From contig NZ_CP014229.1 in NCBI RefSeq assembly GCF_001553605.1, positions 351,001-415,000 of the forward strand: a stretch of 64,000 nt of DNA. Reading direction: 5' to 3'. Each line of letters begins with the position of its first letter. The first letter of the stretch is position 1. A model generated the notes under the pieces. That model searched no databases, was not told the origin of the DNA, and was given only the letters and a program-made list of their open reading frames with translations. This DNA comes from Desulfovibrio fairfieldensis. Its GTDB lineage: Bacteria; Desulfobacterota; Desulfovibrionia; Desulfovibrionales; Desulfovibrionaceae. Both the position numbers and the translations under genes were made by a program. This document shows positions 45,819 through 46,238 of this stretch, piece after piece.

Positions 45819-45903
45819 GCCGAATCTCCTCTCTTGAAGTATGTGCGGGCGCCGCCGCTGATCCGATACGTCCGGTTGAACGCGCCTGTATCCGTAAATA
45901 CAA

Positions 45904-45944
45904 AAAGGGTTGCATTCCTCATCTCAGAAGGAATGCAACCCTTT
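45904..45944 (-). terminator. Terminator-like hairpin in the leader of chemoreceptor 4
   Basis: A perfect 16-bp stem AAAGGGTTGCATTCCT / AGGAATGCAACCCTTT with a 9-nt loop, ending in TTTTTG on the minus strand, 85 nt before the receptor ATG. The smaller CCGCT/AGCGG hairpin followed by TTTTTT is at 45957-45981. The leader ORF ends exactly at the base of the larger stem. Confidence 0.65.
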
Positions 45945-46101
45945 AAAAAATATACGAAAAAAGATCCGCTTCGCTCAGCGGTTCAGACTCTCTCTCTCTC
46001 TCTCTCTCTCTCTCTCTCTCTCTCTCTCTCTCTCTCTCTCTCTCTCTCTCTCTCTCGGCACACGGCCAAACATCGGCGGCGCGGGCGGCAGGCATGTTCA
46101 T
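45943..46101 (-). CDS. Leader ORF containing the (GA)34 tract, chemoreceptor 4
   Basis: A 52-codon ORF starting MNMPAARAADVWPCA, then a long Glu-Arg run, then ESEPLSEADLFSYIF, with GGAG 5 nt before the ATG at 46101. In the present repeat length it runs through the small hairpin and stops (TAA, 45943-45945) at the foot of the terminator-like stem, where a terminating ribosome would cover that stem. Translation is inferred only. Confidence 0.35.
   Translation of the reverse strand: MNMPAARAADVWPCAERERERERERERERERERERERESEPLSEADLFSYIF
45988..46056. repeat. (CT/GA)34 dinucleotide microsatellite
   Basis: An uninterrupted 69-nt CT run on the plus strand, 7 units longer than its counterpart at 40987. 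Flanks on the receptor side are homologous between the two loci; flanks on the promoter side are not. Confidence 0.98.
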
Positions 46102-46211
46102 GGGGACTCCGGGATGCGGATGTAAAACTGGTTTCTCCTTCATAAGCAGCGGGAAGCCGCATGAAGCAACGCTCGATCCTGATCGCTCTACATAATACGT
46201 GCCACTTTACA

Positions 46212-46238
46212 TAATCGGACGTAAGAAATATTTCTTTA
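46212..46238 (-). promoter_or_regulatory. Sigma-28 promoter of chemoreceptor 4
   Basis: TAAA-N15-TCCGATTA, 10 of 12 matches, about 390 nt upstream of the receptor ATG and 110 nt upstream of the leader ORF start. Confidence 0.68.

Follow-up and report, generated by a model that had tools for sequence, protein, structure and literature searches.

The leader of a chemoreceptor gene, receptor 4, was analysed in a window of 64,000 nt (contig coordinates 351001-415000 of a single 3,699,310-base contig), and its organization makes it very probably a phase-variable transcription attenuator, in which the length of a GA tract would decide whether a terminator-like hairpin folds ahead of the receptor gene. 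While the preliminary description reported two such leaders, the genome has about 12, and the dependence of the hairpin on tract length, with strong comparative support from 16 of 16 leaders and from the pil1 precedent in Streptococcus gallolyticus, is the explanation that best accounts for the sequence.

Organization of the receptor 4 leader

Receptor 5 (46464-48359) and receptor 4 flank the leader, which is on the minus strand, and a terminator-like hairpin separates receptor 5 from it (Table 1). All parts of the leader were found in the order and at the places given in the preliminary description. The promoter-like site matches 10 of 11 letters of the sigma-28 consensus known from E. coli FliA, and a CGGAG lies just 5' of the leader ATG; two further in-frame ATGs give an identical outcome. 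From its start the leader ORF runs through MNMPAARAADVWPCA, the Glu-Arg repeats and the small hairpin to a TAA. The GA tract, described earlier as 69 nt long, has exactly that length and is 100% pure, and it contains no stop in any of the three frames, being read as Glu-Arg or Arg-Glu. The small hairpin (-9.7 kcal/mol, z -3.0 in folding against shuffles) is putatively a weak terminator or pause site. The top pair of the big stem is G-U, leaving 16 Watson-Crick pairs, in keeping with the perfect 16-bp stem described before, and the 46-nt stretch holding this hairpin folds at -26.3 kcal/mol, compared with -8.6 +/- 2.4 kcal/mol for shuffled sequences (n=200; z -7.4), none of the 200 shuffles matching its energy. 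Receptor 4 starts 170 nt past the tract with its own AGGAG ribosome site, so the tract lies outside the receptor reading frame, which sets it apart from in-gene contingency repeats.

Table 1. Features of the chemoreceptor leaders, in positions of the window
Feature	Coordinates	Strand	Details
Repeat-less homologous leader	38489..38612	-	before receptor 36751-38490
Terminator-like hairpin, receptor 2 leader	40902..40944	-	one A-C mismatch, -19.6 kcal/mol
GA tract, receptor 2 leader	40987..41041	-	55 nt; leader ATG 41095-41097
Relic leader and broken receptor start	43530..43616	-	upstream of receptor 3; ORF reaches far hairpin arm
Receptor 4	44079..45818	-	methyl-accepting chemotaxis protein, 579 aa, 4HB_MCP_1 + MCPsignal
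Strong terminator-like hairpin, receptor 4	45904..45944	-	17 pairs, T-rich DNA after
Receptor 4 leader ORF, present frame	45943..46101	-	ATG 46099-46101 to TAA 45943-45945
Small hairpin, receptor 4	45966..45981	-	CCGCT-GAGCGA-AGCGG, then ATCTTTTTT
GA tract, receptor 4	45988..46056	-	69 nt
Sigma-28-like promoter, receptor 4	46213..46238	-	TAAAG 46234-46238, 15-nt spacer, CCGATT 46213-46218
Terminator-like hairpin	46384..46418	-	between receptor 5 and receptor 4 leader

Predicted states of receptors 4 and 2

The three frames in which a ribosome can leave the receptor 4 tract stop at +3, +11 and +43 after it, the first two being 39 and 31 nt 5' of the big stem. The present frame is the one ending at +43, and its TAA overlaps the foot of the 17-pair stem, just as had been reported for an ORF reading through the small hairpin. 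In our ribosome model, with the stop codon in the A site and about 12 nt shielded beyond the first base of the stop, folding with the footprint masked weakens the hairpin from -25.2 to -3.6 kcal/mol for the +43 frame and leaves its base open, and the hairpin is untouched for the other two frames. The earlier suggestion that a terminating ribosome would block folding and keep receptor 4 ON thus agrees with the model, and the block at the foot may be partial because ribosomes leave stop codons fast.

For receptor 2, the present stop (TGA 40975-40977, +10) falls within the loop of the small hairpin, 32 nt short of the big stem, and the gene is therefore predicted to be OFF. The long frame of this leader passes the foot of the stem and ends at +120, missing a foot stop because its T-run has 7 T and not 6. 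The opposite states proposed before for these two leaders, receptor 4 ON at 69 nt and receptor 2 OFF at 55 nt, therefore follow from the ribosome/terminator model as predictions. The homology of the two leaders, noted in the preliminary description, is confined to the part between tract and receptor start (95% identity, query 1-223 of 420); the promoter and ORF halves differ. Exact predictions for receptor 4 are ON at 63, 69 and 75 nt and OFF between, and these are therefore checkable by repeat counting.

One predicted open frame in each of 16 leaders

Sixteen leaders with a hairpin were analysed, 12 from this genome (receptors 4 and 2, L072, L079a-c, L080a-d, L084 and L073 on the minus strand) and four from G029, a sister genome of the same genus (L121, L123a, L123b and L285). 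Folding with the footprint masked showed that, in 16/16 leaders, the hairpin is disabled in just one of the three exit frames and stays intact in the other two. When the spacer between tract and hairpin was shuffled, between 7 and 46% of the trials for a given leader met this rule by chance, giving a joint P of 6e-11 for all 16, a value that is too small because the ON/OFF thresholds were chosen after the first stop table had been seen and leaders within a family are related; with one leader per family in this genome (9/9) the P was 1.6e-6. The count stayed at 14-16 of 16 when the footprint was varied from 12 to 20 nt and the loss threshold was set to 4 or 6 nt, and an earlier, cruder ON/OFF rule had held in 12/14.

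The repeat unit is not divisible by 3 and lies in a short leader ORF with a start of its own, and an intrinsic-terminator-like hairpin, recognized from sequence and folding, stands between this ORF and the gene. In 16/16 leaders the stop of each frame is either well short of the hairpin or located at, inside or past it. No more than 7 nt separate the tract end from the earliest stop in any of the 16 leaders, and the hairpin starts 42-51 nt past the tract in 14 of them (exceptions 32 and 62), a similar spacing despite several unrelated sequence families. The open frame ends on the foot of the hairpin in receptor 4 and in the leaders of three more receptors in two species, namely L084 (stop +39, hairpin +42) and, from G029, L123b and L285 (stop +42, hairpin +43/44).

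In L073 (minus strand), the sense strand carries a 55-nt TC tract that encodes Leu-Ser instead of Glu-Arg repeats, the stops are at +3, +19 and +116, the hairpin is at +62 and the receptor at +173, and the same rule is obeyed; therefore it is the frame that matters, and not GA-rich RNA or a Glu-Arg peptide. A function of the leader peptide itself was rejected, as the peptides are widely different and Leu-Ser repeats occur in one of them. The rule also holds in L080a and its counterpart L121, though no intact receptor lies behind either.

Leaders across the genome

The genome has 26 AG tracts of at least 13 nt, and 14 of these precede chemoreceptor genes, 13 of the 38 receptors found by PF00015; the two counts differ since one receptor is counted behind two tracts, the first of which, L080a, fronts an orphan segment. 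A terminator-like hairpin follows the tract in 12 of the 14 receptor-associated leaders, and no such terminator was found after the tracts of L082 and L085. In G029 five tracts were found in receptor-leader position, four with the hairpin and one (L124) without a terminator-like hairpin. Sigma-28-like sites were matched 5' of the leader ORF in 13/17 leaders, receptor 4 included, compared with 267/3400 shuffled upstream regions. The tracts lie 140-290 nt 3' of these sites, a distance that does not fit a repeat switch acting on promoter spacing.

With the chosen starts, 3/12 own leaders (receptor 4, L080b and L080d) and 1/4 in G029 (L123b) are predicted to be ON, a predicted share near the third that is expected if frames drift freely.

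Some members of the set are chimeric or incomplete. The leader L079b (tract at contig 2404968-2405010) has an upstream half resembling L079a and L079c and a downstream half resembling receptors 2 and 4, which suggests that the module of leader ORF, tract and terminator may allow exchange at the tract. The start and the early reading frame of the receptor that follows are lost, though a long ORF still covers its signalling domain. L080 (contig 2415110-2415520) and L121 of G029 include a leader of tract, ORF and terminator with no intact receptor behind, and in both species it precedes a segment, 91% identical between them, with a terminator-like hairpin at its end; more copies of this segment lie just 3' of several receptor genes. 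It might be a relic, but might also be a phase-variable RNA with a relation to the 3' ends of receptors; an Rfam search of four loci, this segment among them, gave no family at the gathering score.

Repeat-poor homologues and other genomes

The repeat-less homologous leader at 38489-38612 has an ORF that crosses the hairpin region and ends as an ATGA overlap with the receptor start, and since it has no T-run it is putatively locked open. The nearest homologue of receptor 4 (70% identity), in Desulfovibrio sp. ZJ369 (L203), has a 9-nt tract, and its leader ORF stops inside the terminator. Together with the relic leader at 43530-43616, all three repeat-poor homologues thus have the open frame, their ORFs running into or beyond the hairpin. 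Positions 43420-43616, between receptors 3 and 4, hold the broken remains of another receptor start, preceded by this relic leader and a sigma-28-like site.

The terminators of L123b and L285 are recognizable relatives of that of receptor 4, in which the TAA is kept and pairs of the stem differ on either side. Terminators have diverged between the two species and are still paired, the lower stem having changed from GG/CC to CC/GG; these compensatory changes were read by hand, as MAFFT aligned the stems of the two species with a shift of one base.

The leader cassette was found in one of 61 genomes searched, the own one. Within the genus, two start patterns detected tracts in 19/79 and 18/79 genomes, and among 52 stretches from these genomes the design of receptor, leader and terminator occurred in one sister genome, G029; L144 and L296 have tracts before receptors with no obvious terminator of that kind. 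Long AG tracts were also present in 21/199 genomes from the family's other genera (25-base pattern), and the loci inspected from them had no receptor motif within a flank of about 1.5 kb, which is short and makes this weak evidence. The exact 29-base pattern had no match in viral contigs.

Alternative explanations

A slippery repeat could also act without attenuation, if the leader ORF passed ribosomes on to the receptor by translational coupling, that is termination and reinitiation. In L085, L077 and L087, one of the exit frames terminates at, or reads across, the start codon of the following gene, and the open frame of L079a and L080b likewise ends as ATGA with the receptor start, all of which would suit coupling. 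However, the longest frame of receptor 4 ends 125 nt before the receptor start, the longest frames of receptor 2, L072, L079c, L080d and L073 (minus strand) also end well short of it, and coupling leaves the strong terminator-like hairpin 42-51 nt after most tracts unexplained; we consider it very improbable. It is very improbable that the tract is invariant or varies without effect, the hairpins serving as ordinary terminators for a small transcript upstream and each receptor having its own promoter. A weak sigma-28-like match does occur in the gap between terminator and gene in 2/17 leaders (L080c and L084), but the motif scan gave no promoter-like match in this gap at receptors 2 and 4, and neither the frame rule in 16/16 leaders nor the position of 14 of the 26 tracts before 13 of the 38 receptors would be expected from such an arrangement.

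Rho-dependent polarity, in which the short frames would leave untranslated RNA for Rho and the hairpin would merely protect or pause, would give a similar picture as far as frame dependence alone is concerned. GA richness is untypical of Rho sites, however, and the untranslated stretch ahead of a hairpin with its T-run is just about 30-40 nt long, so that we regard Rho as very improbable here. A mutator cause of tract variation through loss of MutS is unsupported, since the genome keeps two MutS-domain proteins and is therefore not an obvious mutator; the presence of mismatch repair does not exclude slippage.

Proposed mechanism and known systems

The attenuator that we favour would work in the following way. 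RNA polymerase would start at the sigma-28-type promoter, and a ribosome would begin the leader ORF and trail through the stop-free GA tract, the length of which would be altered by strand slippage in 2-nt units, and therefore the exit frame would take three states in turn. Two of these would have the ribosome stop immediately past the tract or some 31 nt short of the big hairpin, which could then fold and end transcription (OFF). In the third state it would reach a stop on the hairpin foot, as in receptor 4 and the leaders of three other receptors, or pass through the hairpin, as in the rest, and with the 5' arm covered the polymerase would continue into the receptor gene (ON). With several receptors switching independently, each cell might carry its own receptor set. 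What the sequence itself shows is the anatomy of the leaders, the frame rule, its recurrence and its conservation at the species level; slippage, termination, the expression states and the phenotype are predicted.

The closest likeness is to the pil1 and pil3 loci of S. gallolyticus (Danne et al. 2014, PMC3894217), for which the available text describes a slippery repeat, with a unit length not divisible by 3, within a leader ORF, a terminator that separates this leader from the gene, and a repeat number that sets the stop position relative to the hairpin and so decides transcription. In the pil1 experiments given there, stops 4 bp before, inside or through the hairpin give high expression, and isolates with a stop at least 28 nt before it have a low-type profile. 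As far as that text goes, the systems differ in the repeat, a GCAGA pentamer there and an AG dinucleotide (once CT) here; in the host and target, adhesive pili of a Gram-positive bacterium as opposed to chemoreceptors with sigma-28-like promoters in a Desulfovibrio-type genome; in scale, two loci reported as against about 12 leaders per genome; and in the number of open frames, two of three being high for pil1 and one of three ON here. Judged from that source, the mechanism is not new in kind, and taxon, repeat, target and scale are new.

Attenuators of trp-type amino-acid operons likewise let leader translation decide whether a terminator hairpin folds, as touched on in the same text (PMC3894217) and otherwise part of general background. 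Unlike these, the leaders here lack regulatory codons, show no evident alternative hairpin and would form a genetic switch through tract length instead of a metabolic one; no trp-type cluster of regulatory codons was found in the leader peptides besides the repeat itself. The tlpB gene of Helicobacter pylori also has a variable simple repeat in a chemoreceptor mRNA leader that changes expression, but its G-repeat acts by pairing with the sRNA RepG and gives a gradual response, and a leader ORF/terminator switch is not described in the portion of the source at hand (PMC8295292). Classical contingency loci share the shift of reading frame by slippage, with the repeat inside the gene. For Helicobacter bizzozeronii, the part of the source available lists one chemoreceptor whose 5' end carries a C9 tract (PMC3234257); in contrast to in-gene repeats of that type, the repeat described here lies outside the receptor gene and would act on transcription. 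A literature search that reached few subscription papers found pil1/pil3, to the extent their description was available, as the sole mechanism of such type, and no phase-variable attenuator for chemoreceptors or for Desulfovibrio.

Implications and other tracts

Phase variation is mostly discussed for surface structures. If our reading is true, it acts here on what cells sense, in a lineage of gut-type sulfate reducers and at many receptors simultaneously, and the pil1 mechanism, reported for two loci in one streptococcus in the available text, arose again and spread through a gene family. We lean towards, without being confident of, a genome-wide combinatorial randomiser, in which about a dozen attenuators would slip independently, each ON in one of three frames, and a clone would split into cells with different chemoreceptor arrays.

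Other AG tracts of the genome lie directly before a chemoreceptor (L085), an EAL/GGDEF protein (L077), a GNAT acetyltransferase (L087) and an MBOAT protein (L074), and in several of these one frame ends at or near the gene start, which looks like translational coupling. The MBOAT acyltransferase genes of L074, in this genome, and of L147, in a second species (G074), have a 50-nt and a 48-nt AG tract, respectively, about 35 nt upstream. At L086 (4376-5146), an endonuclease III-like gene starts 308 nt past a 52-nt AG tract, a position that makes phase-variable DNA repair possible.
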